Assembly (NCBI GenBank): GCA_013697055.1
Contig: JACCXK010000050.1
Location: forward strand, 1-34,169
Length of the DNA: 34,169 bases
DNA from: Alphaproteobacteria bacterium
Lineage (GTDB): Bacteria > Pseudomonadota > Alphaproteobacteria > Micropepsales > Micropepsaceae
Direction of reading: 5' to 3'
How positions within the stretch are numbered: position 1 is the stretch's first letter; each line of letters opens with the position of its first letter. The notes beneath the pieces are model-generated. The model saw only the letters and a list, made by a program, of their open reading frames with translations. It did no database searches and was not told the DNA's origin. Position numbers and translations under genes: made by a program. This document shows positions 8,676-34,169 of this stretch, piece after piece.

Positions 8676-9662
8676 TCATGCTTTGGCGTAAGGCTTCAGA
8701 AAACGCTCCATGGCATCGCGAATGAACTGCTTTTGCTGCGGTTCCAGAATCGGGGAGGCATGCGCTCCGGCGGCCTTGCGCAGCACGGTGTCTTCGGAAA
8801 AGACACCGCGCGCGACCAGGACATATTCGTTGGATCCGGGTATCGAATTGAAAGCGCTGATACGGCCGAACATGTCGAACGCGGCTTTGCGGTCCCCGGC
8901 GTGCCACAAGTCGAAGCTGCTTTGGTACAGATCGGCCAATCCGACATAGGGGCAGGATCCGGAAAAGCCCAAACCCATTTCCGCCAGCATGGTGTGGCCG
9001 CCGTTGCCGGAAAAATCCGCGAGCTTGCCTTCGGTTCCCTTCAGGATTTGCGGCGCGCGACCCAGCGGATCGCCCGCTTCGTCTTTTACGGCCTTGAGAG
9101 TCGGTACCTTCTTGGATAGTTCGATCACCAAATCCACGCTGGCATTGCCGACCACCTGCATCATCAAGGGTAGGGGCGTGGCGGCGCCGATTGCCCGGTA
9201 GTAAGCGACAATCTGGGCCTCCGTGGCATTCTCGGGCGGCAGCGAGATGATGCCGTCAGCACCTTGCGCCGCTGCGAGCTTGGTGTAGCGCACAGACTTT
9301 GCCGTATCGCCGCCCACCGTCTGGACGCCGATGACAATCCTGGTCTTGCCGCCCTTGGCTGCCGACAGCAACGCGCGCATCCCGTTCGTCCATTCTTGTT
9401 CCGACAGCGTAGCCCAGGCACTGGCATTCTGCGGCCAGACCAAGCCCGCGACGCCGCCACGCCGGCAAAAAGCGACTTGTGCAGCCATGGCAGAAATATC
9501 CAGTGCGCCATCCGGGGTGCAGGGCGTCCAGGCAATGGGATAGATGCCGCGAAAGCCTGGGGCCTCAGCTGCGGCGACGGGACGAGATGTTACGACCAGA
9601 CTCGCGATGCTCGTAGTTGCAGCAAGAAAATGGCGGCGATCAAAAGCTGAAGCATGTTTCAT
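8676..9662 (-). CDS. Tat-exported protein of the dihydrodipicolinate synthase / N-acetylneuraminate lyase fold
   Basis: A 328-residue protein with a twin-arginine signal (DRRHFLAA, R9-R10, then a hydrophobic stretch ending VAAAEA at about 34) and a DHDPS/NanA-type TIM barrel (GIYPIAWTPCTPDGALD; Schiff-base lysine K193 in TLKAVKDEAGDP). Enzymes of this family are class I aldolases or dehydratases for 2-keto acids. Two usual motifs are altered: the pyruvate-binding GTTGE reads WPQNASAW, and the segment holding the catalytic tyrosine (usually PYY) reads LPPENA. The reaction may therefore differ from that of the classical enzymes. Export is unusual, since family members are mostly cytoplasmic. 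GGGAAGGA before ATG 9662 supports the start. It has its own proposed operator and lies on the same strand as the propeller operon, 143 bases before it. Confidence 0.87.
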   Translation of the reverse strand: MKHASAFDRRHFLAATTSIASLVVTSRPVAAAEAPGFRGIYPIAWTPCTPDGALDISAMAAQVAFCRRGGVAGLVWPQNASAWATLSEQEWTNGMRALLSAAKGGKTRIVIGVQTVGGDTAKSVRYTKLAAAQGADGIISLPPENATEAQIVAYYRAIGAATPLPLMMQVVGNASVDLVIELSKKVPTLKAVKDEAGDPLGRAPQILKGTEGKLADFSGNGGHTMLAEMGLGFSGSCPYVGLADLYQSSFDLWHAGDRKAAFDMFGRISAFNSIPGSNEYVLVARGVFSEDTVLRKAAGAHASPILEPQQKQFIRDAMERFLKPYAKA

Positions 9663-10680: not shown

Positions 10681-13600
10681 TTGTCCTTTCGCATCGATTT
10701 GAGCGCCGACAGCGCTTTTCCCCCGATCCGTTCTGATTTGTTCAGCGTGGATAGGCTGGAGGAGCATGCTCGTAGCCTCGCAGGAGCCCAGCCTGTCGGC
10801 AAAGCGATCGGGCAATTCACTGCGCTCCCGAAGAAGCTTCGCCAAAACGTCAGCGATCTGACAGAAAATTTCGTGCTGCTGGCCAAAGCCGCCAAGGCTG
10901 GTCACCCAATAACATCAGCCGGAGAGTGGTTTCTAGACAATTTCCACATCGTGGAGGAGCAGGCTCGCCAGGTTCAGCGTGACTTGCCCGCAAGCTTCTA
11001 CCGGGAATTGCCGAAACTGACGGAAGGCCCGCTGGCCGGTTTTCCAAGGGTCTACGGTATTGCTTGGGCGCTGGTAGCGCACACCGACAGTGGCTTCGAC
11101 ATGGAGCGGCTGGAAAGGTTTCTCAAGGCATATCAGCAGGTATCGCCGCTGAAGATCGGCGAGCTGTGGGCGATTTCGATCACTCTGCGACTGGTGTTGG
11201 TCGAAAATATCAAGCGCCTGACCGACCGGGTGGTCCTGCGCGTTCGCGAGAGCGACCGGGCCGATGGCATGGCGCAGCAGGCCCTTGCCGCGCTGGGCGA
11301 TGGCGCGCCGGCCAGGGCGCTCGAACGCATGGCATTCTCCGCGGCGACGCTGGCGCGTTTCGAGCGGCAACTGCGCGACCAGGGCGTGCAGGGCGAACGG
11401 ATTCTGGAATTTGTGGAAATTGAACTGGCGGCGCAGGGAGTCTCAAGCCACGAGATCATTCAAAACGAATATCAGGCCCAATCGGCCGATGACGTCTCGG
11501 TGCGCAATGTCATCACCGCGATGCGTTTGGTGTCGAGCATCGACTGGACGGAATTTTTCGAAAGCGTCAGCCTGGTGGACGGTGTGCTGGGTGAAAACGC
11601 CGGCTTCCATGCGCTGGATTTCACCACCCGCGACCGCTACCGTCAGTCGATAGAGCGTCTGGCGCGGCGGGCGCCCTTCGACGAAATCCAGATCGCCAGG
11701 ATGGCCATCGAACAGGCGGAAGGCCCGGCCGCGCAATCGGCGCGCGAGCGTGATGTCGGCTTCTGGCTGATTGGCAAGGGCCGCAGGTCCCTGGAGCAGA
11801 GGGTTCGCTTTGCACCGTCCGCCAAGTTGCGGCTGATGCGTACGATCTCTGGCTGGGGCATATGGGGATATGTCAGTGCGCTTGCCATCGTAACGGCATT
11901 GTTGGTTGGGGCCGTACTGGCCGCCATGGATGTACTGGGGGCGCCGGCAGCGTGGCTGCCCGCGCTTGCGATCCTTGCGCTGTTGCCGGCCTCCGAGCTC
12001 GCGGTGGCGCTGGTCAACCGCGTGGCGACGAACCGCTGGCGGCCTGAGATCCTGCCCGCGCTGGAGCTCAAGGATGGTGTTCCGGAATCGTTGAGCACGG
12101 TGCTGGTGGTGCCGGTCCTGCTGGGTAACGAGAAAGACATTGCCGAGCAGATCGAACGGCTGGAAGTTCATTATTTCGCCAATGGTGATGCCGGCCTGCA
12201 ATTCGCTCTTCTATCCGACTGGGTGGACAGTGATGCGCAGCTATCCGAGGAAGACACGCGCCGTCTTGATTTCGCCACCGCCCGGATCGCGGCTCTGAAC
12301 CAGCGGCATGCCAGGGGCGAACCACTGTTCCTGCTCCTGCATCGTGCACGACTGTGGAATCCGTCCCAGAACAAGTGGATGGGATGGGAACGCAAGCGCG
12401 GCAAACTCCACGAATTCAACCGCCTGCTTCGGGGGGCAACGGACACGAGTTTCATCGATCCCCCCGTGATGTTTCTGAAGCGCCGCGTCCGCTACGTCAT
12501 TACCCTGGACGCCGACACAAGGTTGCCGCGCGGCGCGGCGCGCCGTCTGATCGGCAAGATGGCCCATCCGCTCAATCAGCCGGAGTTCAATTCTCAAAAC
12601 CGCTGTATCTCGGCGGGATACGGAATTCTCCAGCCGCGAGTGACGCCGTCGCTTCCCATCGGGACGGAAAGCTCGATTTTCCAATGGGCTTTTTCCGGGC
12701 CCAATGGCCTCGACCCTTACGCCTTCGCCGTTTCCGACGTCTACCAGGACCTGTTCAATGAAGGCTCCTTCGTGGGCAAGGGCATCTACGACGTGGATGC
12801 CTTCGAAAAGGCCCTGGAAGGACGCATCCCGGAAAACACCATTCTTAGCCACGATCTTCTGGAAGGCGTCTTTGCCCGCGCCGCGCTGGTGTCGGACGTT
12901 GAAGTGGTGGAGGAGTTTCCCTCCCGTTATGACGTCGAGGTTTCGCGGCAGCACCGCTGGGTGCGCGGCGATTGGCAGCTTGTGCCCTGGATATTCGGCA
13001 GCGGGCACACGGTTCCGCTGCTGGGTCGCTGGAAGATGCTGGACAACCTTCGCCGCTCGTTGACGGCGCCGGCGATGCTGTTGTCCTTTCTGCTCGGATG
13101 GATGTTGCCGCACACGGCCGCGCTGGCCTGGACCGTGTTTCTGACCCTGGTCATCCTTCTGCCGCCACTGCTGCCGATCGCCGCCGGTGTCTTTCCGCGA
13201 CAGCGCGGCTACTCGCTCCGCAGCCATGCGCGCAGCCTGGCGCGCGATACGGTGCTGGCCGTCACCCAGATACTGTTCAGCGTCACCTTCATGGCCCGGC
13301 TGGCATTCCTGGCACTGGATGCCATCACACGCACGATCTTCCGCCTATTCGTCAGCCGCAAAAACCTGCTGCAATGGGTCACCTTCGCCCAGTCAGCCTA
13401 TAGCCGCAGGGCCGGATGGAGCAGCACGCTGCTGCAGATGGCGGGCAGCGTGACGTTTGTTCTGGTCTCGTCAATCCTGATTGGCATGCGCGATATCACC
13501 AACTTGTGGCCTGCGCTGCTCTTTTTGACGCTGTGGGGTTTTTCGCCCGTCCTGGCGCGTTGGGCCAGCCAGTCGCCGCGCGTTGAACCGCACCTGGAAA

Positions 13601-16600
13601 TGTCGGATTCGGATCGAAGCGCGTTGCGGGTCGCGGCGCGGCGCACCTGGATGTTCTTTGAAAGATTCGTGACCACTGGCGACAACGCGCTGCCGCCGGA
13701 TAATTTTCAGGAAGACCCGGCGCCGGTCGTTGCGCACCGCACTTCGCCCACCAATATCGGCGGCTATCTGTGTTCGCTGCTGGCTGCCCATGACATGGGC
13801 TGGATTGGAACGCTGGCGACGGTAGAGCGCCTCGAAGAAACATTTGCCAGCTTGCAGAAGCTGGAGCGGTTTCGCGGCCATTTCATGAACTGGTACGATA
13901 CCGCCAGCCTGCGTTCACTGGAGCCGCGATACATCTCGACTGTGGACAGCGGCAACCTGGCGGGCAACCTGCTGGTCGTCAAAAATGGCTGCCACGAACT
14001 GGCATCACCCCCCACTGCTGCAGTGGTGCGTGGGGGACTGGCCGATGGGCTAGCGATGGTGCGAGAGACTATACAAGCCATGTCCGCAGGCATGTCACGG
14101 AGCGGCCTGGAACAAAAGCTCGAACCGGTAGCCCGCATGCTGCAAGGGGATGGCGTACTCCCAGGGGCGTGGTTTGCAAACCTGCAGGCTGCTGTCCAAG
14201 TGCTGCTCGATGAAGCTGCCTTGGGAGCGCCCTTAGCTGTACAGCTTGCTGTTTCGAGCCTGCTGCATTCCGTCGAAAGCCATGCAAAGCCATTGCCGCC
14301 AGCGGACAAGATGGCGCCGCGGCTGGCCGCTCTGTCCCGCCAGGCCGGCGATTTTGTCCATGACATGGAATTCGGCTTCCTGTTCGATGAGACGCGCCAG
14401 TTGCTGTCCATCGGCTACCGATTGGAAGACCAGGCGCTGGATGCGAATGCCTATGACCTCCTGGCCTCGGAAGCGCGGCTGGCGAGCTTTCTGGCCATCG
14501 CCAAGGGCGATATTCCCACCCGGCACTGGTTTCGCCTGGGCCGTACCCTGACGCCGCTCGGACGCATCCCGGCGCTGCAATCCTGGTCCGGCTCGATGTT
14601 CGAATATCTGATGCCCAGCCTGATCATGCATGAGCCGACCGGCAGCCTGATCAACCTGAGCAATCGCGCGGCGGTTCGCCGTCAGATCCGCTACGCCTCC
14701 TCGCTCAACATCCCCTGGGGCATATCGGAGTCCCAGTATAATGCCCGCGACCGGGATCAGAATTATCAGTATTCCGGATTCGGCGTTCCTGATCTTGGGA
14801 TCAAGCGCGGCCTGGGCGAAAATACCGTCGTGGCGCCTTATGCCACCGGGCTGGCGGCAATGGTGGCGCCTGTCCAAGCGCGCCGCAATCTCGACCGCCT
14901 GACCCGGGTTGGTGCGCTGGGAGATTATGGCTGGTACGAGGCGATTGACTATACGCCCGCCCGGCTTCCCGAAAACACCAAGCGCGTCGTGATCCGCGCA
15001 TACATGGCTCATCACCAGGGGATGATGGTCCTCGGGCTGGCCGATGTCCTCAATGACGGCAGAATGCGCGAGCGTTTTCATGCCGAGCCGATGGTGCAGG
15101 CCGCCGAGCTTCTGTTGCAGGAGCGCATGCCGCGCGACGTGTCCGTGGCGCGCCTGCCGCCGTCCATGAATACTGGTGCCATCACCTATTACGATGCCGA
15201 GCCGCGCGGCCCGCGCACCTTTATCGATCCCGGCACGGATACGCCGCGCACCCATCTTCTGTCCAATGCCTCCTACAGCGTGATGTTGACGGTGGCGGGA
15301 TCCGGCTTCAGTCGCTGGCAGGGCCAGGCGATCACGCGTTGGCGCGAGGATGCGACGCGCGATCCCTGGGGCTCCTTCATCTATTTGCGCGACCTGCGGG
15401 ACGGACGCACCTGGTCGGCCGGGTTCCAACCTGTTGGCGCACGTGCCGAGGAATACAGCGTGGAATTCTCCGAAGACCGCGCCCGCATGCGGCGTCGCGA
15501 CGGCGTGCTGGAGACCGTGACAGAAATAACCGTTTCCCCTGAAGACGATTCGGAAGTGCGCAGGATCACCATCACCAACCACGGGACGCGGTTGCGGGAA
15601 ATCGAAGTTACCTCCTATATGGAGCTTGCGCTTGCGGTGCCGCGTGACGATGACGCCCATCCGGCTTTTTCCAAGCTCTTCGTCCAGACTGAATATTTGC
15701 GCGAGACCGGCGCGTTGATTGCGACGCGGCGGCCGCGTAGCCCGACCGACAAGCCGATCTGGGCGGCACATCTGAGCGTGGTGGACGGCGAATCCGTTGG
15801 GGATGTCCAGTATGAAACCGACCGTTCCAAATTCCTGACGCGCAACAAGTCGGCGCGAAACGCCGGCAGTGTGATGGGCGGATGGCCGTTGTCCAATACG
15901 GCCGGCGCGACCCTTGATCCCTGCTTCAGCCTGCGGCGGCGCATCCAGCTGGGACGCGGAAAAAGCGTTTCGATCGCGTTCTGGACGATGGCCGCTGCCA
16001 GCCGCAAGGAAATCCTGGATCTCGTCGATCGGCACCATGACGGAGCGGCCTTCGATCGCGCGATGACCCTGTCCGCGACGCATTCCGAATCGCAATTGCA
16101 GCACCTGGGTATTTCGGGCGATGAGCCCAACCTGTTCCAGCTGCTGGCGAATGCCATCATCTACATGGATCCTGCCCTGCGCGCGCCGCCCGAGGTGCTG
16201 ACGTGCGTGGCGCCGGCGCAGGTATCCTTGTGGCCCTTTGGAATTTCCGGCGACCTTCCCATCGTGCTGGTACGGCTCCAGGACGAAGGGCAGCTCGGCC
16301 TGGTGCGGCAGATCGTTCGGGCGCGGGAATATCTGCGGGTGAAGGGCCTGGCTTTTGACCTCGTCATCGTGAACGAGCGCGAAGCGTCCTATGCCCAGGA
16401 GCTGCAAAAAGCGCTTGAAGGTATCGTGCACGCCAACGACCGGTCGCCCGATGACGGCCTTGGACATATTCAATTGGTGCGCACCGATCTTGCCGGAGCC
16501 GACGGCGTGGCGCGGTTGCGCGCGGTCGCGCGGGTGGATTTGACCGGGCGGCGGGGAAGCCTGGAACAGCAGCTGGCGATTTCCGCCAAGGATACGCTGG

Positions 16601-19104
16601 CCAGAGACGAAGTTACCCTCCCCACACCGCCTGTTGCGCCGAAGGCTGCGGCGCAGCCCGATCCGAAATTCTTTTCGAATTTGCGCTTCTTCAACAGCTA
16701 TGGCGGTTTCAGTGCAGATGGACGCGAATATGTTGCCATTGCGCGGGCAGGCCGCCCCACACCGGCGCCATGGATCAACGTGATCGCCAATCCGGATTTT
16801 GGCTTCCAGGTCTCGAGCGAAGGCGCAGGGTTTTGCTGGGCTGCAAACAGCCAGCAGAACCAGATCACGCCCTGGTCAAACGATCCGGTGACCAACGAGT
16901 CGGGAGATTTTCTCTATCTCAAGGACCTGGATAGTGGCGATGTATGGTCGCCCGTTTCCACGCCGATTGCACACCCGTCCTGCCTGTATATCAGCCGCCA
17001 TGGCCAGGGTTACAGCAGGTTCGAAACTTCGGGTTTGTGGATTTCAAGCGAACTGACCCAGTTCCTGCCGCGCACTGATGGCGTCAGGATTTCACGCCTG
17101 AAGCTGCGCAACGCCTCGGACAAGCCGCGCCGGCTGGCGGTGACGCAATATGTGTCCTGGGCGCTGGGCGCTGCCGGCACGCGCCAGCCCTTTGTTCAGA
17201 CCTGGATGGATCCGCAGACACGCGTGCTTCTGGCCCGCAATCCCTGGAACGCCGATTTCGGCGAGCGCGTGGGTTTTCTGGACATGCGCGGCGGCCAGAC
17301 GGCTTGGACCTCGGACCGCCGCGAGTTTCTTGGCCGCAATGGCTCTTTCGCGGCGCCGGCCGCGCTTGCCGGCAGCAAGCCTCTGTCAGGCCAGCTGGGT
17401 CCGGCGCTGGACGCCTGCGCTGTCCAGCAACTGGAAATCTTGCTGGCGCCGGGCGAGGAGACCGAGGTCGTCATACTGCTGGGCCAGGGGCGTGATGCTG
17501 AAGATGTTGGCAGGCTGGTGGAAAAATACCGTGGCGCGGACTTGGACGCGGTTCACGCCGATGTTGAGGCCTTCTGGGATGAAACCTTGGGCGCCATCCA
17601 GGTTCACACGCCGGATCCGGCGATGGATATCCTGGTCAATCGCTGGCTGCTCTATCAGACCTTGTCGTGCCGCATGTGGGGCCGGGCAGGGTTCTACCAG
17701 GTCTCCGGCGCTTATGGCTTCCGCGACCAGCTGCAGGACTGCATGGCGATGTGCGTCAGCCGGCCAGATCTTGCACGCGAGCAGATCCTGCGGGCGGCAG
17801 GGCGGCAATTCGAGGAAGGTGATGTCCAGCATTGGTGGCTGCCGGAAAGCGGCAAGGGCATCCGCACGCGCATATCCGATGACCGTGCCTGGCTGGGTTA
17901 TGTCACGGCTTACTACATCGAAGTGACGCAGGATGTTTCCATCCTGGACGAGCAGTTGCCGTTCCTGGTCGCACCGCCGTTGAAAGAGGGCGAGCATGAC
18001 GCATTTTCGCCGCCGCAGGTCACGCAGGAAACAGCCAGCCTGTACGAGCATTGCGCCCGGGCGTTGGACGCGTCGCGCTCGATAGGGATCCATGACCTGC
18101 CCCTGATGGGTACCGGCGACTGGAACGACGGCATGAACCGCGTGGGCGAGCAGGGCAAGGGCGAAAGCGTCTGGCTGGGCTGGTTCCTGCACAATGCGAT
18201 GCGCCGTTTCTCGCCTTATGCCGAATCACGCGGCGATGCCGTGCGCGTGGCCGATTGGCTGGTGCATATGGACGTCCTGCGAAAAGGGCTTGAGATGAAT
18301 GCCTGGGATGGCGCTTGGTACCGGCGCGCCTATTTCGATGACGGCTTTGCGCTGGGTTCGGCAGCAAACCGGGAATGCCGCATCGATTCGATCGCGCAAT
18401 CCTGGGCCGTGATTTCCGGCGTCGCGCCGCAGGACAAGGCGCGGCAGGCGATGGAAGCGGTAGACCGCTACCTGGTCCGCACCGAAGATCGGCTGATGAC
18501 GCTGTTTACCCCGCCCTTCGTGGATAGCATTCACGATCCCGGTTACATCAAGGGGTATCCCGCGGGTATCCGGGAGAATGGCGGGCAATACACCCACGGC
18601 GTGCTTTGGAGCATCGTCGCATACACCATGCTGGGCGAGGGAGATCGAGCGGGTGCGCTGTTCTCCATGCTCAATCCGATCAATCACGCGCGATCGAAGA
18701 CCCAGACGGAGCGTTACCGTGTCGAACCCTATGTCGCGTGCGGTGATGTCTATTCCGTACCGCCGCATGTGGGGCGCGGTGGGTGGACCTGGTATTCCGG
18801 TTCCGCGGCATGGATGTACCGCGTTGCTGTCGAGAGTATTCTGGGCTTGCGCCTGGCGGGCGACACGCTGCTGATCGCGCCAGTCATCCCCAGAGCCTGG
18901 CCGAAGTTCGAGGCCACTGTTCGGAGAGGCAATGCGACCTACAAAATTTTAGTCGAAAACCCGGAAGGCCGCTGCAGCGGTGTTGCGACAGTATCGCTGG
19001 ACGGTAAGCCTGTGCCCTTTGACAATGGTATCCATTTGGCTCGTGACGGCGCAAACCACGAAATCCACATAGTATTGGGCGAACATGGAGCCGTGTCGAC
19101 ATGA
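10681..19104 (+). CDS. ndvB: Cyclic beta-1,2-glucan synthase (NdvB/ChvB/Cgs type)
   Basis: A 2807-residue inner-membrane enzyme that builds cyclic beta-1,2-glucans from UDP-glucose, close in length to known NdvB/ChvB proteins. From the N-terminus: a region starting IRSDLFSVDRLEEHARSLA; membrane segments at about 391-445; a GT84 glycosyltransferase with DAD (610-612), SHDLLEG (723-729) and QHRW (757-760); further membrane segments at about 797-840, 856-885 and 921-960; a central glycoamylase-like region with SGSMFEYLMPSL (near 1304) and MAHHQGMMVLGL (near 1442), which recent work links to ring closure; and a C-terminal GH94 phosphorylase-like part with GDWNDGMN (D2480-D2483), which trims chains. 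The frame is open only from TTG 10681, directly preceded by in-frame TAA and ACA codons, and family conservation begins near there. It overlaps pgm by ATGA, so the two are translationally coupled. A stress-type promoter candidate lies upstream. Confidence 0.95.
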   Translation: MSFRIDLSADSAFPPIRSDLFSVDRLEEHARSLAGAQPVGKAIGQFTALPKKLRQNVSDLTENFVLLAKAAKAGHPITSAGEWFLDNFHIVEEQARQVQRDLPASFYRELPKLTEGPLAGFPRVYGIAWALVAHTDSGFDMERLERFLKAYQQVSPLKIGELWAISITLRLVLVENIKRLTDRVVLRVRESDRADGMAQQALAALGDGAPARALERMAFSAATLARFERQLRDQGVQGERILEFVEIELAAQGVSSHEIIQNEYQAQSADDVSVRNVITAMRLVSSIDWTEFFESVSLVDGVLGENAGFHALDFTTRDRYRQSIERLARRAPFDEIQIARMAIEQAEGPAAQSARERDVGFWLIGKGRRSLEQRVRFAPSAKLRLMRTISGWGIWGYVSALAIVTALLVGAVLAAMDVLGAPAAWLPALAILALLPASELAVALVNRVATNRWRPEILPALELKDGVPESLSTVLVVPVLLGNEKDIAEQIERLEVHYFANGDAGLQFALLSDWVDSDAQLSEEDTRRLDFATARIAALNQRHARGEPLFLLLHRARLWNPSQNKWMGWERKRGKLHEFNRLLRGATDTSFIDPPVMFLKRRVRYVITLDADTRLPRGAARRLIGKMAHPLNQPEFNSQNRCISAGYGILQPRVTPSLPIGTESSIFQWAFSGPNGLDPYAFAVSDVYQDLFNEGSFVGKGIYDVDAFEKALEGRIPENTILSHDLLEGVFARAALVSDVEVVEEFPSRYDVEVSRQHRWVRGDWQLVPWIFGSGHTVPLLGRWKMLDNLRRSLTAPAMLLSFLLGWMLPHTAALAWTVFLTLVILLPPLLPIAAGVFPRQRGYSLRSHARSLARDTVLAVTQILFSVTFMARLAFLALDAITRTIFRLFVSRKNLLQWVTFAQSAYSRRAGWSSTLLQMAGSVTFVLVSSILIGMRDITNLWPALLFLTLWGFSPVLARWASQSPRVEPHLEMSDSDRSALRVAARRTWMFFERFVTTGDNALPPDNFQEDPAPVVAHRTSPTNIGGYLCSLLAAHDMGWIGTLATVERLEETFASLQKLERFRGHFMNWYDTASLRSLEPRYISTVDSGNLAGNLLVVKNGCHELASPPTAAVVRGGLADGLAMVRETIQAMSAGMSRSGLEQKLEPVARMLQGDGVLPGAWFANLQAAVQVLLDEAALGAPLAVQLAVSSLLHSVESHAKPLPPADKMAPRLAALSRQAGDFVHDMEFGFLFDETRQLLSIGYRLEDQALDANAYDLLASEARLASFLAIAKGDIPTRHWFRLGRTLTPLGRIPALQSWSGSMFEYLMPSLIMHEPTGSLINLSNRAAVRRQIRYASSLNIPWGISESQYNARDRDQNYQYSGFGVPDLGIKRGLGENTVVAPYATGLAAMVAPVQARRNLDRLTRVGALGDYGWYEAIDYTPARLPENTKRVVIRAYMAHHQGMMVLGLADVLNDGRMRERFHAEPMVQAAELLLQERMPRDVSVARLPPSMNTGAITYYDAEPRGPRTFIDPGTDTPRTHLLSNASYSVMLTVAGSGFSRWQGQAITRWREDATRDPWGSFIYLRDLRDGRTWSAGFQPVGARAEEYSVEFSEDRARMRRRDGVLETVTEITVSPEDDSEVRRITITNHGTRLREIEVTSYMELALAVPRDDDAHPAFSKLFVQTEYLRETGALIATRRPRSPTDKPIWAAHLSVVDGESVGDVQYETDRSKFLTRNKSARNAGSVMGGWPLSNTAGATLDPCFSLRRRIQLGRGKSVSIAFWTMAAASRKEILDLVDRHHDGAAFDRAMTLSATHSESQLQHLGISGDEPNLFQLLANAIIYMDPALRAPPEVLTCVAPAQVSLWPFGISGDLPIVLVRLQDEGQLGLVRQIVRAREYLRVKGLAFDLVIVNEREASYAQELQKALEGIVHANDRSPDDGLGHIQLVRTDLAGADGVARLRAVARVDLTGRRGSLEQQLAISAKDTLARDEVTLPTPPVAPKAAAQPDPKFFSNLRFFNSYGGFSADGREYVAIARAGRPTPAPWINVIANPDFGFQVSSEGAGFCWAANSQQNQITPWSNDPVTNESGDFLYLKDLDSGDVWSPVSTPIAHPSCLYISRHGQGYSRFETSGLWISSELTQFLPRTDGVRISRLKLRNASDKPRRLAVTQYVSWALGAAGTRQPFVQTWMDPQTRVLLARNPWNADFGERVGFLDMRGGQTAWTSDRREFLGRNGSFAAPAALAGSKPLSGQLGPALDACAVQQLEILLAPGEETEVVILLGQGRDAEDVGRLVEKYRGADLDAVHADVEAFWDETLGAIQVHTPDPAMDILVNRWLLYQTLSCRMWGRAGFYQVSGAYGFRDQLQDCMAMCVSRPDLAREQILRAAGRQFEEGDVQHWWLPESGKGIRTRISDDRAWLGYVTAYYIEVTQDVSILDEQLPFLVAPPLKEGEHDAFSPPQVTQETASLYEHCARALDASRSIGIHDLPLMGTGDWNDGMNRVGEQGKGESVWLGWFLHNAMRRFSPYAESRGDAVRVADWLVHMDVLRKGLEMNAWDGAWYRRAYFDDGFALGSAANRECRIDSIAQSWAVISGVAPQDKARQAMEAVDRYLVRTEDRLMTLFTPPFVDSIHDPGYIKGYPAGIRENGGQYTHGVLWSIVAYTMLGEGDRAGALFSMLNPINHARSKTQTERYRVEPYVACGDVYSVPPHVGRGGWTWYSGSAAWMYRVAVESILGLRLAGDTLLIAPVIPRAWPKFEATVRRGNATYKILVENPEGRCSGVATVSLDGKPVPFDNGIHLARDGANHEIHIVLGEHGAVST

Positions 19105-24798: not shown

Positions 24799-26370
24799 AT
24801 GAAGATTTCTCGCAGGACCGTCCTGGCCGCGTCGGCATCGGCGCCCTTCATTGGCCGCGCCTCGGCAGCGACAACCGCCGGCATCCGGATCCATAGCGGG
24901 CGCCATCGCGGCCCGATCGACAAGAACATCTTCGGCAATTTCATCGAGCATCTGGGACGCTGCATCACCGGCGGTATTTTCGATGAAGGCTCGCCCTTGT
25001 CGGACAGGGAGGGATTCCGCACCGATGTGATGACCGCCGTCAAGGACATGGGCGTGCCGATGCTGCGCTGGCCGGGCGGCAACTTCTCGTCCAACTACAA
25101 TTGGCGCGACGGCATCGGCCCGCGGAACAATCGTCCGCGCCGGCTGGAAATGGCCTGGGGCACGGTGGAAGACAACCGCTTCGGCACCCATGAATTCATG
25201 GACTATGTCGAAAAGGTCGGCGCCGAGCCTTATATCTGCTTCAACCTGGGCACCGGCAGCTGGAGCGATGCCCAGCAATGGGTCGAATATGTCAACGGCA
25301 CCCAGGACACCGAGATCACCCGCCAGCGCAAGAAGAACGGCCGCGACAGGCCGTGGAAGGTCAAATACTGGGGCCTGGGCAATGAGATGGACGGCTATTG
25401 GCAGATGGGCCATCGCTCGGCCTCCGACTATGGCGCCTTTGCGCTGGAAGCCGCCAAGCTGGCCAAGCTGACCGACCCGGACGTCAAGCTGATCGCCGCG
25501 GGCTCGTCCAATTACCGGCCGGGTTCGGACTGGATCGGCTGGAACCGCACCGTGCTGGATTATCTCAAGGACTATGCCGATTACATTTCGCTGCATCTGT
25601 ATGTCGGCAATGCCGGCAATGATTATGCCGACTTCGTCGCCAGCCCGATCGAGATGGACCAGAAGATCGAGACGGTGGCGGGCATCATCGACTCCGCGAT
25701 GGCGACGCGCACCAACCGCGTCACCGGCCAGTTGGCCAATGACGGCCGCCGCATCTACATCGCATTCGACGAATGGAATGTGTGGTACCGCGCCCGCGGC
25801 GACGGCCAGCGCGGCCGCCGCATTCTGGAAGAGCATTACAATCTGGAAGATGCGCTGGTGGTGGCGGGGTTCCTCAACTCGCTGGTCAATCATGCCGATG
25901 TGGTCAAGATTGCCAATCTGGCGCAGCTGGTGAACGTGATCGCGCCCATCTTTACCAGCGACAAGGGCCTGTTTCTGCAGACCATCTATTATCCGCTGCA
26001 ACTGTTCAGCAAGAACGTCAAAGGCAACAGCCTGGAGCTGCTGGTGGACGGCCCGTTCTACAAGAGCAAGCGCTTTGACAAGGTGCCGTATATCGACGCC
26101 TCGGCCTCCCTCGACGGCGACGGCCTGGTGGTTAATGTCGTCAACCGCCACCAGGACCAGGCCATCGAGGTGGCAATCGGGCTGGAAGACAAAAGCTTTA
26201 CCGGCCCCGTCACCGTGTCGGAGGTCAACGGTCCGGACATCAAGGCGCAGAATGATTTCGGCTCATCGCCCGTCGCCGCCAAGAGCCGCACCGTCGAGGC
26301 ACGCGGCAACAACCTGAGCCTCAGCTTTGCACCCCACTCCTATACCCAGCTCCGGGCCAGGCTGGCCTGA
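24799..26370 (+). CDS. Exported alpha-L-arabinofuranosidase, GH51
   Basis: A 523-residue glycoside hydrolase that removes terminal arabinofuranose from arabinan, arabinoxylan or arabinogalactan. A Tat-type signal (KISRRTVLAASASAPF) covers about residues 1-24. Family GH51 signatures follow: IFGNFIEHLGRCITGGIFDE, MLRWPGGNFSSNYNWRDGIGP (seen in part), WGLGNEMDG with acid/base E196, and IAFDEWNVWY with nucleophile E325. The C-terminal beta domain (about 400-523) ends SYTQLRARLA. Length is normal for the family. Many GH51 enzymes are cytoplasmic; export to the periplasm fits a Gram-negative that trims oligosaccharides there. It begins a three-gene operon: the bicupin gene starts 23 bases after it behind GAGGAA. 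The clean AGGGGG ribosome site supports ATG 24799. Confidence 0.95.
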   Translation: MKISRRTVLAASASAPFIGRASAATTAGIRIHSGRHRGPIDKNIFGNFIEHLGRCITGGIFDEGSPLSDREGFRTDVMTAVKDMGVPMLRWPGGNFSSNYNWRDGIGPRNNRPRRLEMAWGTVEDNRFGTHEFMDYVEKVGAEPYICFNLGTGSWSDAQQWVEYVNGTQDTEITRQRKKNGRDRPWKVKYWGLGNEMDGYWQMGHRSASDYGAFALEAAKLAKLTDPDVKLIAAGSSNYRPGSDWIGWNRTVLDYLKDYADYISLHLYVGNAGNDYADFVASPIEMDQKIETVAGIIDSAMATRTNRVTGQLANDGRRIYIAFDEWNVWYRARGDGQRGRRILEEHYNLEDALVVAGFLNSLVNHADVVKIANLAQLVNVIAPIFTSDKGLFLQTIYYPLQLFSKNVKGNSLELLVDGPFYKSKRFDKVPYIDASASLDGDGLVVNVVNRHQDQAIEVAIGLEDKSFTGPVTVSEVNGPDIKAQNDFGSSPVAAKSRTVEARGNNLSLSFAPHSYTQLRARLA

Positions 26371-26393: not shown

Positions 26394-27323
26394 ATGCCCA
26401 TCAAATATCTTGCGCCGCTCGCCGCCGTCTTGCCGGCGCTGTTTTGTCTTGCGGCGTCGGCGCAAACCGCGCGGCCGGCGCCCCTGCATGCCTGGGCGCC
26501 GCAGCCAGTGAAGCCGGCGCCCTTCACCGCGCCGAACAAGCCGCTCAAGAGGCTGGCCGATATCCTGGCGCGTCACAAAGGCAAGAGCGATTGGGCCGAA
26601 ACCGAGGTGCTGACCCGTGACTATGTCGGCCAGTATATTTCCATGGGCCCGGGCCAAAAAACCAAGACCATGTTTTGGGCCGATGACCGTGTGTTCTGGT
26701 GGGTGCAGTCCGGCCAGATGAAAGTCAGCATCGAAGGCCAGGAGCCGTTCATTGCCGGCAAGGGCTTTCTGGTCCAGGTGCCGTATCGCATCCCGTATGC
26801 CATGGAGACGGTCGGCAATGAACCGGCGGTGCGCTTTGAAATCCGTGCGGCGGGCGAAGTGCCCAGCTATCCCGCCGCCGAAACGCCAACCCCGGTCAAG
26901 GGCTGGAAATTCGTGGACACCATCTATACCGGCCGCGGCAAGTATGACGAGATCAACAAGCCCTATCTGGATTTCGAGAAGGATGTCGTGCAGGGCGGCG
27001 CCAAAGGCGGCGGCTTTGTGCGCGACGACCATACCTGGGCCAATGTGATCCGCGCCCCCGGCGTGCCAACGCCGTCGCCGTCCAGCTGGGGTCATTTTCA
27101 CGAGAACTTCGCCGAGTTCTGGGTGGTGATGGAAGGCAAGCTGGAATTCCTGATCGAGGGCGAGCCGCTCATCCGCGCCGAAGTCGGCGACATCGTGTTC
27201 GCGCCGGAGGAACGCTGGCATCGTGCGCTGTCCGCCGGCAGCGGCATGGGCACGCGCCTGGCCATCACGCCGCGCCCGCCGAGCCTGCATTATTATCAGC
27301 CCGGTGCCTCGCTGGGAGATTGA
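26394..27323 (+). CDS. Exported bicupin protein
   Basis: A 309-residue protein with a signal peptide (residues 1-24, ending ASAQ) and two cupin-like halves. The C-terminal half has a full metal-binding cupin motif, GHFHENFAEFW with H234, H236 and E241, then H276 in ERWHRALSAG; these four residues usually bind Fe, Mn or Zn. The N-terminal half (about 75-160; WWVQSGQMKVSIEGQEPFIAGKG in part) keeps the fold pattern but lacks the metal histidines. Cupins in sugar operons can be isomerases, lyases or epimerases, or simply bind ligands; the reaction here is not known. It lies between GH51 and the large glycosidase-like gene, whose ATG overlaps its stop by one base (TGATG), so all three are co-expressed and exported. 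Confidence 0.85.
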   Translation: MPIKYLAPLAAVLPALFCLAASAQTARPAPLHAWAPQPVKPAPFTAPNKPLKRLADILARHKGKSDWAETEVLTRDYVGQYISMGPGQKTKTMFWADDRVFWWVQSGQMKVSIEGQEPFIAGKGFLVQVPYRIPYAMETVGNEPAVRFEIRAAGEVPSYPAAETPTPVKGWKFVDTIYTGRGKYDEINKPYLDFEKDVVQGGAKGGGFVRDDHTWANVIRAPGVPTPSPSSWGHFHENFAEFWVVMEGKLEFLIEGEPLIRAEVGDIVFAPEERWHRALSAGSGMGTRLAITPRPPSLHYYQPGASLGD

Positions 27324-29971
27324 TGCCCATGCCGCAGATGCATCGCAGAAACCTGGTCAAGCTTGCTGGTGCGCTGCCGGTGCTGGGAAGTGGCGCCTCT
27401 GCCGCCACGCCGATGCGGATCGCCGCCGTTATAGCGCCCGGCAACGCTGCTGCCGGCTCGCCGCCGGTTTCCCGGGCACTGGACAAGTTGCGCCAGGCTT
27501 TGGCCGCGCACAACTTGGAGCTTATTAGAGGTGTCCCCGGTGGGATGTATGATGTTGCTCTGATGATCCTCGTTGCGGAGCATGCCGATGGCTTTGCACC
27601 ACCAAGCGGGACCCAAATCTTACCTGAACAGTTCCGGATTGTACCCAATCCAGTATCAGACGCGCGGGCATTGCTGGTCTCGGCGCACGACATTCGTGGC
27701 TTCGTTTATGGGTTGCTGGAATTGGCGGAGCGGGTGCGCTTCGGTGGTTTGGCGGCGTTGTTCCTGCACGATGTCATAGACGAGGCGCCCGCCAACCGGG
27801 TGCGCAGCGTGGCGCGCGCCTTTTGCAGCGAGATCGAGGACAAGCCCTGGTTCTATTCGGAAAGCTTCTGGCACGGCTATCTCGACATGCTGGTGGCCTG
27901 CCGCTTCAACCGGTTCAATTTCTCCTTCGGCATCGCCTATGATTTTCCGCGCGGCGTCACCGACGATTATTTCCACTTTCCCTATCCTTATCTGGTCACA
28001 GTGCCCGGCTATGACGTGCGGGCGGTGCCGCTGGCGGAGGGCGAGCGGGAACGCAATCTGGCCATGCTGCAATTCATCGCGCGTGAGACGGTGGCGCGCG
28101 GGCTGGATTTCCAGCTGGGCATTTGGACACACGCCTATCAATGGACGGACAGCCCGGACTCCACCCACCACATCACCGGCCTGACGCCGCAGACTCATGG
28201 TCATTATTGCCGCGACGCGCTGGCCATGATCCTGAAGGTGTGTCCGGAAATCAGCGGCCTGACCCTGCGCATCCATGGTGAAAGCGGCGTGCCGGAAGGC
28301 AGCTATCCTTTCTGGCAGACGGTGTTCGACACAATTCCCGCCGCCGGCCGCACCATCGAGATCGACATGCATGCCAAGGGCCTCAACCAGGTCATGATCG
28401 ACATGGCGGCCAGGACCGGCATGCCGGTGAAGGCGGGCTGCAAGTATTCGGCGGAACATCAAAGCCTGGGCTATCACCAGGCCGATATCCGGCCGGTGGA
28501 AATTCCCCGGCCGGGAGGCGCCTCCAGCGCGGTGTTCGCGGTCAGCGAAGGCGACCGGCGCTTCACCCGCTATGGCTATGCCGATCTTTATCGCGCCGGC
28601 CAGAAATACGAGCTGCTGTACCGCTTGTGGCCAGGCACGCAGCATCATTTGTTGTGGGGCGATCCCGCCCAGGCCGCCGCTTTCGGGCGCAGCGCGCATT
28701 TTTGCAATGCCGCGGGGTTTGAACTGATGGAGCCCCTGACTTTCAAGGGCCGTGAAGGCTCCGGCCACGCCGGCGGCCGCTGCGCCTATGCCGACAAGAG
28801 CCTGGACCCCGGCCTGGCCGACTGGATGAAGTTCGCCGTCAGCTACCGGCTGTGGGGGCGGCTACTTTACAATCCGCAGGCGACGCCCGACGCCTGGCGC
28901 CGCGACATGAAACGCCGCTACGGCCCGGCAGCGGCGGCCGCGGAGGAGGCGCTGTCCCACGCCAGCCGCATCATGCCGCTGTTGACCTCGGCGCATTTGC
29001 CGTCCGCGTCCAATCACGACCTGGAATATGAGATGGCGATGAACATGCCGATCGTTGCGGGCGGCGACATCCCCTACAGCGACACGCCGGAGCCGAAGGT
29101 TTACGGCCATGTCAGTCCGCTGGATCCGCAGCTTTTCGCCACCATCGCCGATCACGCGCAAGACCTGCTGGCGGGGCGGAGCAATGCCAAATATTCCCCC
29201 ATCGAAGTCGCGGCCTGGCTGGAGGGTTTCGCGGACATTTCGGAAAATGCCCTGGCGCGGGCGCGCAAACAGTCGGATGCAATGGAGGTCCGGCGGCTGG
29301 ATGAAGACACGCGCATCGTCAACGCCATGGGGCGTTTCTACGCCGCCAAATTGCGCGCCGCCTTGCTCTATGAAATCTGGAGCAGCACCCGCGATCCAGA
29401 GGCAGGTAGCCTGGCCTTGTCGCATTACGAAAAGGGACGCGGCGCCTGGGCCGCCATGGCCGAACGCGCCAAGGCCGTCTATGTCATGGACATTTCCTAT
29501 GGCCGGGTGCCGAAGCGGCGCGGACATTGGGCCGACAAGCTGGATGGCATCGACAAGGATATCGCCGCCATGCGCGCCGCCATCGCCGCGGGCGGTTCGC
29601 GCATGGCGGATGTGGGGCAGGCGATCGGGAAGGCGGTCGCCTCCCGCCAACGTCCGACCGTGCCCTGCCGGCATGAGGCGCCGGAGCGTTTCGTTCCCGG
29701 CCAGCCGCTGGCTTTGTTGCTGGCCGCCGCTGGCGTTTCGGTGCGGCTGCATTATCGCCACGTCAATCATGCCGAACGCTGGCTGAGCATGCCGATGACG
29801 CAGCAAGGCGGCGCCTTCACCGCCGCCATCCCCGGCGACTACACGGACTCGGTGTTTCCGCTGCAATATTATTTTGAGTTGTCGCGCGCAGGTGCGGCCT
29901 GGCTTTATCCCGCCTTCAACGCGACGCTTTCCAACCAGCCCTACTATGCGGTCTGGCAGCGAGAACCGTAA
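27323..29971 (+). CDS. Large exported glycosidase-like protein of unassigned family
   Basis: An 882-residue protein. It starts at ATG 27323, overlapping the bicupin stop by one base; a second ATG at 27329 is possible. A twin-arginine-like signal is present (HRRNLVKLAGALPVL, ending SAAT). The N-terminal part (to about 150) has SAHDIRGFVYGLLELAERV, like the domain before the catalytic barrel in GH67 and GH20 enzymes. The middle (about 165-500) looks like a TIM barrel, with RFNRFNFSFG, GIWTHAYQW, LRIHGESGVPEGSYPFW (E320), IEIDMHAKGLNQ and KYSAEHQSLGYHQADIRP. Glutamates and the conserved H, K and D residues there could be catalytic, but I cannot name a family. The C-terminus (about 770-880) is beta-rich. 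The operon suggests action on arabinose- or uronate-containing glycans. Confidence 0.75.
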   Translation: MPMPQMHRRNLVKLAGALPVLGSGASAATPMRIAAVIAPGNAAAGSPPVSRALDKLRQALAAHNLELIRGVPGGMYDVALMILVAEHADGFAPPSGTQILPEQFRIVPNPVSDARALLVSAHDIRGFVYGLLELAERVRFGGLAALFLHDVIDEAPANRVRSVARAFCSEIEDKPWFYSESFWHGYLDMLVACRFNRFNFSFGIAYDFPRGVTDDYFHFPYPYLVTVPGYDVRAVPLAEGERERNLAMLQFIARETVARGLDFQLGIWTHAYQWTDSPDSTHHITGLTPQTHGHYCRDALAMILKVCPEISGLTLRIHGESGVPEGSYPFWQTVFDTIPAAGRTIEIDMHAKGLNQVMIDMAARTGMPVKAGCKYSAEHQSLGYHQADIRPVEIPRPGGASSAVFAVSEGDRRFTRYGYADLYRAGQKYELLYRLWPGTQHHLLWGDPAQAAAFGRSAHFCNAAGFELMEPLTFKGREGSGHAGGRCAYADKSLDPGLADWMKFAVSYRLWGRLLYNPQATPDAWRRDMKRRYGPAAAAAEEALSHASRIMPLLTSAHLPSASNHDLEYEMAMNMPIVAGGDIPYSDTPEPKVYGHVSPLDPQLFATIADHAQDLLAGRSNAKYSPIEVAAWLEGFADISENALARARKQSDAMEVRRLDEDTRIVNAMGRFYAAKLRAALLYEIWSSTRDPEAGSLALSHYEKGRGAWAAMAERAKAVYVMDISYGRVPKRRGHWADKLDGIDKDIAAMRAAIAAGGSRMADVGQAIGKAVASRQRPTVPCRHEAPERFVPGQPLALLLAAAGVSVRLHYRHVNHAERWLSMPMTQQGGAFTAAIPGDYTDSVFPLQYYFELSRAGAAWLYPAFNATLSNQPYYAVWQREP

Positions 29972-31868: not shown

Positions 31869-31930
31869 GCCTGCGCAAGGAAATCTTGGTTTTCCGGTCG
31901 TTCGTGCTGCAAGCTTTGCGCTTCAACAAT

Positions 31931-31945
31931 GAGGAGGGGACATTG
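31931..31945 (+). promoter_or_regulatory. Ribosome binding site that sets a TTG start for the MFS gene
   Basis: GAGGAGGGG at 31931-31939 contains a full GGAGG five bases before TTG 31943. The upstream part of the same frame (from 31886) has no such site, so translation very probably starts at the TTG. Confidence 0.75.
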
Positions 31946-33199
31946 CAGCAGCGCAGACCCGTACTGGCATGGGGCATCGCATTTCTTGTCGGCGCCGCTA
32001 TCGCGATCAGCTATCTTGATCGACAGACGCTGCCTTGGGCGATCAAGGCCATTCAAGCCGACTTTCCGATTTCCAACCAGGTCAAGGCGGCTTTGGATTC
32101 CGCGTTCCTCGTTACCTACGGCCTGATGTATCTGGGCGGCGGCTGGCTTCTGGACCGTGTCGGTACGCGCAAGGGTTTCCTGCTGGTCATGACCGTCTGG
32201 TCGCTGGCCTGTGCCAGCCACGGGCTGGCCCGCAACGCGATGTCCCTGGCCGCCAGCCGGTTGATGCTGGGCCTGGGCGAGGGCGGGGGATTTCCCGCCG
32301 CCACCCGCGCGGTGGCGGAATGGTTCACGCCCAAGGACAGGGCGCTGGCGATGGGCATCGTCAACGCCGGCACCGCGGTGGGCGCGGTGATCGCGCCGCC
32401 GCTGATTGTGCTGGTTCTCACCCAGGTTCACTGGCTTGAGATCACGAGCTGGCGCTGGGTTTTCTATCTGACCGGAAGCCTGGGGCTTGTCTGGGCCATC
32501 GCCTGGTTTTTCATCTATTTCACGCCCGATACGGGCTCGAAGGATCGTGAGGAAGAGCAACAAGGTCCGGCAATCACCGTCGCGATGCTGGTTGCGCGCA
32601 AGGAAGTGCGCGGCGTCGTCATCGCCAAGTTTCTTTCGGATGCGGCCTGGTACTTCTATCTTTTCTGGCTGCCAAAATATCTCTTCGAAGTCCAGCATTT
32701 CGACCTGAAACAGGCCGGCTCACTCGGCTGGATTCCCTATGCGGCGTCGGGCGTCGGCTGCCTGGTCGGCGGTTTTCTGTCCAGCCACCTGCTTGGCCGG
32801 GGAGCATCCGTCGACACCGCCAGGAAAGTGGCGCTGGGATTCAGCGCGGCGCTGATGCCATGGGTGATGCTGGTGCCGCATATTCCCGGCATCGGCTGGA
32901 TCCTGCTGCTCTTCAGCATGGCGTTCTTCGGCCAGCAATCCTGGTCGACCCTGGTGATGGTGCTGCCCACAGACCTGGTGCCGCGCCAGGCCGTCGGAAA
33001 GCTGGCGGGGCTTGTCGGGCTTGGCGGCGCCATGGGCGGCGTCGTTCTGGGCCAGACCGCGGGATGGCTGCTGGATCACGGTTTCAGCTACACCCCGGTA
33101 TTGACCATCGCGGCATGCCTTCACCTGATCGCGTTCGGCGTCATCTGCCTGTCCATTCCGCGACTGCAACGTCTCACATTCGAAAGGGTACGGTCTTGA
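31943..33199 (+). CDS. MFS transporter, anion:cation symporter (hexuronate/aldonate) type
   Basis: A 418-residue inner-membrane transporter with about 12 transmembrane helices. The first helix ends YLDRQTLPWA, a mark of the ACS family (ExuT, galactonate and similar sugar-acid carriers). The loop 2-3 motif LLDRVGTRKG and GLGEGGGFPAATRAVAEWF are also typical. The start is TTG 31943, set by a strong GGAGG. Its stop overlaps the TTG of the dehydratase gene by four bases (TTGA at 33196-33199), so the two are coupled: the transporter probably brings in the acid sugar that the dehydratase uses. It is divergent from the second IclR gene, with the tandem palindromes between. The exact substrate (rhamnonate, galactonate, hexuronate or another) cannot be told from sequence alone. 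Confidence 0.92.
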   Translation: MQQRRPVLAWGIAFLVGAAIAISYLDRQTLPWAIKAIQADFPISNQVKAALDSAFLVTYGLMYLGGGWLLDRVGTRKGFLLVMTVWSLACASHGLARNAMSLAASRLMLGLGEGGGFPAATRAVAEWFTPKDRALAMGIVNAGTAVGAVIAPPLIVLVLTQVHWLEITSWRWVFYLTGSLGLVWAIAWFFIYFTPDTGSKDREEEQQGPAITVAMLVARKEVRGVVIAKFLSDAAWYFYLFWLPKYLFEVQHFDLKQAGSLGWIPYAASGVGCLVGGFLSSHLLGRGASVDTARKVALGFSAALMPWVMLVPHIPGIGWILLLFSMAFFGQQSWSTLVMVLPTDLVPRQAVGKLAGLVGLGGAMGGVVLGQTAGWLLDHGFSYTPVLTIAACLHLIAFGVICLSIPRLQRLTFERVRS

Positions 33200-34169
33200 A
33201 GATTACAGAAGTGCGTACGCGCGTCGTTCAATGGACTGGAACTACCGCAAAGCTTCCGCCGCATTTCTGCACCAACCCGATGGACCTGGTTGCTCCGATG
33301 CTGTCGCCGGAGACGATGGGAACCTTCACCTTTCATGGCTGGCTGATCGTGGAGATATTCACCGATCAGGGGCTTGTCGGGATCGGCAATGCCGCGCTTT
33401 GTCCGCTTGTCTCCAAGAACCTGATCGATACCTATCTCGCGCCGCTGTTGATCGGCGCCGATCCCTGGGACGTGGAATTCCTCTGGCAGCACATGTACCG
33501 CAAGACCCTGCCGTTCGGCCGCAAGGGTATTGCGATGGTCGCGATCAGCGCCATCGACATCGCGCTGTGGGATCTGATGGGCAAATCGGCCAAGCAGCCT
33601 GTGTTCCGCCTGATGGGCGGGCGGACCAAGCCGCGCATCCCCGTCTATGCCAGCCGGCTCTATTCGATGCCGCTGGAACAGGTCGCAGCCGAGGCCGCGA
33701 AGTACAGAATCGAAGGTTATACAGCGGTGAAAATGCGCTTCGGCTGGGGGCCGATCGATGGCGCCGAGGGCATGCAACGCAATCTCGAACTGGTGCGAAC
33801 CGTGCGCGAAACGGTCGGCGATGGCATCGATGTGATGGCCGACGCTTACATGGGCTGGTCGCTGGACTATGCCAAGCGGATGATGCCGCTGCTGGACCAC
33901 TTCAACCTGCGTTGGCTGGAAGAGGCGATCAATCCCGACGACATCCACGGCTATACCGAGTTGCGCCGCTTTGGCCGCACCCCGATCGCGGCCGGCGAGC
34001 ATGAGTTCACGCTCTACGGTTTCCGCCAGATGATCGAGGCCAAGGCGCTGGACGTTATCCAGTTCGACACCAACCGCGTCGGTGGGCTGACGGCCGCGCG
34101 CAAGATCCAGGCGCTGGCGGAAGCCCATTCCATTCCCGTCGTCCCGCATGCCGGCCAGATGCACAACTA
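33196..34169 (+). CDS. Enolase-superfamily acid-sugar dehydratase, L-rhamnonate dehydratase-like (3' end missing)
   Basis: At least 324 residues, cut by the window end. It starts at TTG 33196 (MKITEVRTRVVQW), overlapping the transporter stop. The capping domain has GTFTFHGWLIVEIFTDQGLVG in part; the barrel follows with AVKMRFGWGPIDG, a segment like that of L-rhamnonate dehydratase. Metal ligands are D216 (MADAYMGW), E242 (RWLEEAINP) and E268 (AAGEHEF); the catalytic pair is D291 (QFDTNRVGG) and H318 (VPHAGQMH). Their spacing agrees with E. coli RhmD. Such enzymes remove water from an aldonic acid to give a 2-keto-3-deoxy sugar acid. Other acid-sugar dehydratases of the superfamily remain possible, so no symbol is given. 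The DHDPS-fold and SDR genes far upstream could in principle act on such products, but they belong to another regulon. Confidence 0.88.
   Translation, partial: MKITEVRTRVVQWTGTTAKLPPHFCTNPMDLVAPMLSPETMGTFTFHGWLIVEIFTDQGLVGIGNAALCPLVSKNLIDTYLAPLLIGADPWDVEFLWQHMYRKTLPFGRKGIAMVAISAIDIALWDLMGKSAKQPVFRLMGGRTKPRIPVYASRLYSMPLEQVAAEAAKYRIEGYTAVKMRFGWGPIDGAEGMQRNLELVRTVRETVGDGIDVMADAYMGWSLDYAKRMMPLLDHFNLRWLEEAINPDDIHGYTELRRFGRTPIAAGEHEFTLYGFRQMIEAKALDVIQFDTNRVGGLTAARKIQALAEAHSIPVVPHAGQMHN

Follow-up and report, generated by a model that had tools for sequence, protein, structure and literature searches.

What kind of enzyme is encoded by a large open reading frame (ORF) that follows an arabinofuranosidase gene in an alphaproteobacterium of the family Micropepsaceae, and on what would it act? 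The window analysed here is the whole stretch of 34,169 nucleotides of contig JACCXK010000050.1 (assembly GCA_013697055.1), and the ORF in question lies at 27323-29971 on its forward strand. A first-pass annotation, made from the letters alone, had read its product as a large exported glycosidase-like protein, GH67/GH20-like in its N-terminal part and fitting no family that could be named. By profile and fold comparison, the protein is a distant sister of glycoside hydrolase (GH) family 138 and not an orphan. It belongs to what is here called the long family, which spans Alphaproteobacteria, Acidobacteria, Verrucomicrobia, Bacteroidota, Ignavibacteriae, Phycisphaerales, Bacilli and haloarchaea and which is widespread and, as far as the tools used here show (a comparison with CAZy was not among them), unnamed. 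On balance, it is likely to be a retaining exo-glycosidase that has kept the GH138 nucleophile, has a changed sugar pocket, and acts on plant-wall oligosaccharides.

The gene and its product

The gene is real and coding. It has 882 codons; the start ATG at 27323 shares its first base with the stop codon (27321-27323) of an upstream cupin ORF, the stop codon ends at 29971, and the translation contains both motifs quoted in the first-pass annotation, HGESGVPEG among them. The length of the ORF is by itself no proof of coding, because long antisense ORFs occur in the window DNA (e.g., 27656-28768). Coding is shown by 54 invariant columns in an alignment of 30 sequences, namely the window protein and 29 relatives with 30-77% identity to it. 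Residues are numbered as in protein P0001, from the second codon, and numbers from the ATG are higher by one. A twin-arginine translocation (Tat)-like motif, RRNLV, was found near the N terminus by motif inspection; such a motif is present in 18/30 relatives and absent from those of Bacilli, rhizobia, Marinovum and Haladaptatus. The window protein is thus probably exported, as had been proposed, and its large size and glycosidase-like nature were borne out as well. The features of the gene are as follows.

27323..29971, + strand: GH138-sister glycosidase-like gene, 882 aa (ORF, alignment, profile, fold, tree)
27323..27409, + strand: Tat-like signal region HRRNLVKLAG (motif alone; 3' limit approximate)
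27413..27787, + strand: N-terminal alpha/beta domain, residues ~31-155 from the ATG (model; profile match to 6hze here)
27788..28807, + strand: TIM-barrel region, residues ~156-495 (model, VIA; active-site loops modelled with low confidence)
28280..28282, + strand: E319 codon (E320 when counted from the ATG), the proposed acid/base, within the motif HGESGVPEG (invariant in 30/30; GH138 equivalence by GE motif)
28454..28456, + strand: E377 codon (E378 when counted from the ATG), the proposed nucleophile, within the motif KYSAEH (hhalign and MAFFT against KYNGE, E361)
28460..28588 (limits approximate), + strand: stretch inserted behind the nucleophile as compared with GH138, YHQADIRP ... FTRYGYAD (the GH138 sequences show a gap here when both sets are aligned together)
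28820..29602, + strand: helical domain, residues ~500-760 (model, VIA; second profile stretch against 6hze)
29645..29968, + strand: C-terminal immunoglobulin (Ig)-like beta-sandwich, residues ~775-882 (separate fold model, fold comparison)

A sister family of GH138

No Pfam family matched the window protein up to E 10, and a PDB search with it as a single sequence found nothing. Its lone NCBIfam match, to the alpha-galacturonidase model NF049878 (the curated model of GH138), scored 30.4 bits, the cut-off being 1300, whereas the GH138 sequences L071-L075 score 1493-1561 bits. The 30-sequence profile, when compared with the PDB, matched the GH138 structures 6hze/6hzf (E = 2.2e-17) over two stretches (profile positions 25-214 and 475-750); the sole further match up to E 1 was to the N-domain of O-GlcNAcase (5e-4). 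The alignment by hhalign of the long family with a GH138 reference set (five sequences above the curated cut-off, from 5/119 genomes) covered residues 29-761 with a probability of 99.8 and E = 1.8e-27, placing KYSAE on KYNGE.

Comparison of the predicted structure with known ones points the same way. The window protein was modelled from a 14-sequence input with a mean predicted local distance difference test (pLDDT) of 72.9 and a predicted template modelling score (pTM) of 0.77. In Foldseek the top five rows are all GH138 (E = 2.1e-22 to 2.8e-21), with GH67 as the next family (1.2e-12). In VIA the match to GH138 has Z 20.4 and a root-mean-square deviation of 4.3 over 614 residues at 16% identity, followed, among the matches listed, by Cwp19 (Z 13.8), GH115 (13.7), GH20 (13.2) and GH67 (13.0). 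GH67, GH115 and GH20, the families named in the first-pass annotation, all fall far below GH138 in structure comparison and profile search. Membership of GH67 was rejected, with no Pfam match at E 10 to its N, M or C domains, as was membership of GH115 (no Glyco_hydro_115 match at E 10) and of GH20 (no GH20 domain at E 10; fold rows at Z ~13). The GH67 and GH115 alpha-glucuronidases do share the domain arrangement, but they lie 6-7 Z units under GH138, and GH67 occurs together with the long-family gene, not in its place. The domain order given in the first-pass annotation (N-domain, barrel, beta-rich C terminus) was recovered, except that it had missed the large helical domain. The last 108 residues, when modelled separately (pLDDT 87.5), form a generic Ig-like sandwich. 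The fold of this sandwich matches generic Ig-like or CBM56-like domains (best VIA Z 11.1), with GH138 not among the listed matches, and its profile found no PDB match up to E 10.

GH138 itself (BP0997/BT0997; PDB 6hze, 6hzf and 6hzg) resembles the long family in a three-part core of ~610-640 residues (N-domain, barrel, helical domain), and the nucleophile motif KYxxE is common to both; each also has a GE motif, the one in the long family being a candidate acid/base site. It differs in that the long family has an insertion after the nucleophile and a C-terminal sandwich unmatched to GH138. The identity of the window protein to GH138-type sequences is 16-19%. In a FastTree analysis of 49 sequences, 30 long-family sequences (support 1.0, branch 1.46), 6 GH138-type sequences (1.0) and 13 sequences of a short clade described below (0.999) fall into separate groups, which are splits and not rooted clades because the tree has no outgroup. 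By the tests made, the window protein is not filed as a GH138 member. Since it would probably work as GH138 does and yet departs from GH138 in some of the membership features tested, we place it in a sister family. The first-pass interpretation is borne out in part.

BT0997 is described as an alpha-galacturonidase acting on GalA-alpha-1,2-Rha (galacturonate linked to rhamnose) of rhamnogalacturonan II (RG-II) (PMC7939467), and GH138 is set among the RG-II families GH137, GH139, GH142 and GH143 (PMC7922503). None of these four was seen among the annotated neighbour genes, and no model search aimed at them was made.

Catalytic residues and sugar pocket

A 2019 GH138 structure paper reportedly assigns a retaining mechanism in which E361 is the nucleophile and E294 the acid/base, and R332 and R521 are said there to bind galacturonate; these positions were counted from residues in the alignments. 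A PDB entry name records that a GH138 E361S mutant was crystallised. KYNGE of GH138 and KYSAE of the long family fall in exactly the same columns by both aligners (hhalign and MAFFT). At the E377 site (GH138 E361), Glu is found in 30/30 long and 6/6 GH138-type sequences and in 0/13 of the short clade, which has A or S. E319 is likewise Glu in all 30 long sequences. The invariance of these two glutamates agrees with the first-pass view that the barrel motifs define a family.

The pocket differs. The site of GH138 R332, which is Arg in 6/6 GH138-type sequences, corresponds to H349 in the long family (H in 27/30; R in 3/30, all three from Haladaptatus). The site of R521, also Arg in 6/6 GH138-type sequences, corresponds to position 564, where none of the 30 long sequences has Arg. 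E569, K351, R389, R415 and R433 are invariant in the long family; E569 is also Glu in 13/13 short sequences, whereas all six GH138-type sequences have Leu there. The function of GH138 is not simply transferable, because the curated score is far below its cut-off and the arginines said to bind galacturonate are not kept. An unambiguous match to an established, characterised family would have refuted the first-pass annotation, and this is half the case: kinship with GH138 is plain, but these same two features hold the protein apart from it. The GH138 link supplies a direct test, through two named glutamates and an altered pocket.

Gene neighbourhood and co-occurrence

The first-pass annotation had associated the gene with a GH51 arabinofuranosidase, and the gene order agrees: GH51, cupin and 882-codon genes follow one another on the + strand, spaced by 23 bases and then by minus 1 base. 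On the opposite strand, two regulator genes stand between the 882-codon gene and an MFS and MR/MLE pair.

24799..26370, + strand: GH51 alpha-L-arabinofuranosidase gene, upstream (Pfam; ArfA 503.5 bits against a cut-off of 625; PDB 1pz3, E = 4.5e-114)
26394..27323, + strand: two-cupin protein gene between GH51 and the 882-codon gene (Pfam; no PDB match at E 0.01)
31886..33199, + strand: MFS transporter gene (closest to the model of the D-galactonate transporter subfamily, at 224.8 bits, under the cut-off of 395)
33190..34167, + strand: MR/MLE (acid-sugar dehydratase superfamily) gene, cut by the window end (PDB 3ssz, E = 9e-122; start position approximate)

In at least 10/28 genomes or records, the window included (G000, G052, G353, G354, G355, G356, G358, W02, W03 and W04), a copy has an MR/MLE gene no more than 10.5 kb away, as against 2.6 expected by uniform placement (P = 1.7e-5, kinship ignored). 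The count is at least 8/28 within 5 kb (1.6 expected, P = 1.6e-5) and at least 5/28 within 2.5 kb (P = 1.2e-3), and, with two small plasmids excluded, at least 8/26 within 10.5 kb (P = 7.5e-5) and at least 6/26 within 5 kb (P = 1.5e-4), kinship again being ignored. W03 was added from neighbour annotation, and G026 is outside the MR/MLE listing.

Neighbour annotation was made on chosen genes, the remaining members of neighbour groups being assigned by similarity. GH51 is near the long-family gene in the window, L057 and L058, the last also having GH127 and pyrroloquinoline quinone (PQQ)-propeller proteins as neighbours. GH10, a TonB receptor and MFS are found in L065 and L066, GH67, GH3 and GH43 in L020, GH88 at a Haladaptatus locus, GH42- or GHL6-type proteins in L022, L023, L026, L029, L030 and L032, and ABC permeases of one type in 10/32 loci. 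Several neighbour genes, three large ones among them (L063:11748-14138, L063:14313-16577 and L015:4592-6175), have no Pfam or NCBIfam match. Two loci offer a hint of an oxidative aldonate route: at L068:4904-9606 an SDR-like gene, a lactonase and a Gfo/Idh gene surround two long copies, and at L058:12460 and 14140 the PQQ-propeller proteins stand by a long copy. In the window itself, a DHDPS-family gene at 8676-9662 (-), with 5-dehydro-4-deoxyglucarate dehydratase as its nearest NCBIfam model, far under cut-off, might serve an acid-sugar route.

Within the genus, 11 carriers (G026 through a partial gene) were compared with 20 of the 49 non-carriers. GH67 is present in 10/11 carriers versus 6/20 non-carriers (P = 0.0015; dropping a 49-residue fragment in G052 gives 9/11 and P = 0.008), GH115 in 6/11 versus 4/20 (P = 0.06) and GH10 in 10/11 versus 12/20 (P = 0.08). 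Carriers of the genus thus tend to use xylan. Neither GH67 nor GH115 was found in G353-G356 and G358, the Bacilli carriers, so xylan is not a common theme. The co-occurrence also led us to reject the long-family gene as a replacement for GH67. A search of the window's own genome (assembly 97% complete) found no GH67, GH115 or UxaC; the UxaC search was positive in 7/14 control genomes, and a galacturonate isomerase route in the own genome was set aside.

A short clade without the nucleophile, and possible oxygenase genes in Bacilli

Proteins of ~700-770 aa (L021:2046; L022:2993; L031:11960 and 31595; L089-L097) are encoded beside the long family or in the same genomes, in Bacilli, Haladaptatus and L097. 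They resemble the long family in the fold region, E569 and the Arg region of the R332 site, and differ in having A or S for E377 in 13/13, no C-terminal sandwich by length, and a tree group of their own. By hhalign the two match at E = 1.2e-54 with a short set of 14 that included L098, a sequence that grouped with GH138 in the tree and is counted there (6 GH138-type, 13 short); the short-GH138 value of 6e-85 is inflated because the set included it. One short-clade relative scores 20.2 bits on Pfam GH67N, under the cut-off of 24.3. Judged from sequence, the short clade is possibly a second new family with another mechanism, and it raises the question of how one fold switches mechanism.

Five Bacilli loci carry an Amidohydro_2 gene near the glycosidase genes, with a Rieske ferredoxin gene beside it in four (L021 ends nearby).

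L021:15534; L022:1463, 2546; L024:14588, 15414; L026:14492, 15627; L067:7951, 8364: Amidohydro_2 / Rieske loci

The closest PDB chains to the L021 Amidohydro_2 protein are those of 8sm7 (E = 2.5e-118); 6m1w, more distant (5.4e-56), is AibH1H2, an amidohydrolase-fold oxygenase supplied by a Rieske ferredoxin. These matches suggest that the Bacilli protein is possibly a sugar oxygenase or demethylase.

Proposed function and its alternatives

Homology, fold, conserved residues and gene neighbourhood are what the comparisons establish; the catalysis, stereochemistry, substrate and pathway that we infer would run as follows. After Tat export, an enzyme with a GH138 core, made up of N-domain, barrel and helical domain, would hydrolyse its substrate in two steps and keep the configuration, E319 serving as acid/base and E377 as nucleophile. 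The pocket for the terminal sugar would be altered, with His349 in most relatives and no Arg at the second (R521) site, and the residue removed would probably be alpha-linked and galacto-configured (galactose, L-arabinopyranose, a methylated sugar, or a uronate held differently). The GH51 enzyme would clear arabinofuranose branches from the same oligosaccharides, and the freed sugar, as an acid, would be imported by the MFS carrier and then dehydrated by the MR/MLE enzyme. The long family could in this way supply a missing step in the breakdown of plant-wall side chains. Several observations weigh against this proposal, beginning with the score of the curated GH138 model. Both aligners set E319 one or two columns off the GE of GH138 (E294), so that their equivalence is drawn from the GE motif. 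R415 is not peculiar to the long family, being Arg in 4/6 GH138-type sequences. The structural model falls below pLDDT 50 at residues 319-325 and 374-419, the regions that hold the active site. As for the pathway, the 10.5 kb limit was chosen after the distances were seen (5 and 2.5 kb were added later), 18/28 genomes, all Acidobacteria included, have no MR/MLE gene within 10.5 kb among the matches listed, and the acid route is patchy, with a PQQ enzyme in L058 only and a lactonase in L068 only.

The sugar may be a uronate gripped in a new way or a neutral sugar. It is rather unlikely, though supported from several sides, that the enzyme is an alpha-D-galacturonidase or alpha-glucuronidase that holds the carboxylate by H349, K351, R389 and R415 and acts on rhamnogalacturonan I (RG-I), RG-II or glucuronoxylan fragments. 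The nearest characterised relative is the RG-II alpha-galacturonidase BT0997, basic residues near the active site are invariant, and GH10 (L065, L066), the GH67, GH3 and GH43 of L020, the co-occurrence of GH67 in the genus and the GH88 of Haladaptatus are in keeping with a uronidase; but the equivalents of R332 and R521 are lost, as a pair, in 30/30, the Bacilli carriers lack GH67 and GH115, and the own genome lacks UxaC, GH67 and GH115 in our search. That the protein has the GH138-like fold but works otherwise than as a retaining hydrolase (as an inverting enzyme, a lyase or a binding protein) we consider very improbable. The fold can dispense with the nucleophile, because A or S takes its place in 13/13 sequences of the co-located short clade, which yet shares E569 with the long family; the invariance of both E319 and E377 in the long family stands against it. 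A bolder extension of the retaining exo-glycosidase, which we hold to be unlikely as a whole, is that the long family is a new GH family that does not cleave galacturonate but releases a neutral, perhaps O-methylated, galacto-configured sugar for an oxidative acid-sugar route, with the short clade as a second new family (inverting or lyase) on the same glycan and with the AibH-type oxygenase and Rieske ferredoxin of Bacilli unmasking the methylated sugar.

Distribution and further observations

Relatives were found in 11/100 genomes, the own genome counted, all of them within the 60 genomes of the window's own genus, and in 2/289 genomes of a class-wide sample, both again of this genus. Fifteen loci are in named contigs: one alphaproteobacterium, four Acidobacteria, four Paenibacillus, one other Bacilli, and one each of Verrucomicrobia, Chitinophagaceae, 'bacterium BMS3Abin03', Ignavibacteriae and Phycisphaerales. 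Relatives also occur in eleven plasmid records (Rhizobium, Neorhizobium, Sinorhizobium, Marinovum and Haladaptatus), named 'hypothetical protein' in seven and without annotation in the other four; the phage records searched gave no match. L025 (its gene in two pieces in the record) and the partial L027 and L011 were left out of the alignments, and L013 and L002, which are one locus, were entered once per alignment. No account of the long family was found in the titles or abstract openings of the open-access papers searched; in two papers the match to 'GH138' was to 'GH13_8'.

Two further proteins were observed. L098:1658-4441, from Paenibacillus radicis, encodes a GH138-type protein that has the nucleophile as well as the two arginines and groups with the GH138 of Bacteroidota. 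The window also encodes, at 10681-19104 (+), a protein of 2807 aa that combines a glycoamylase-like domain with the supersandwich and catalytic domains of GH94, a layout that we take to be that of cyclic beta-glucan synthases.

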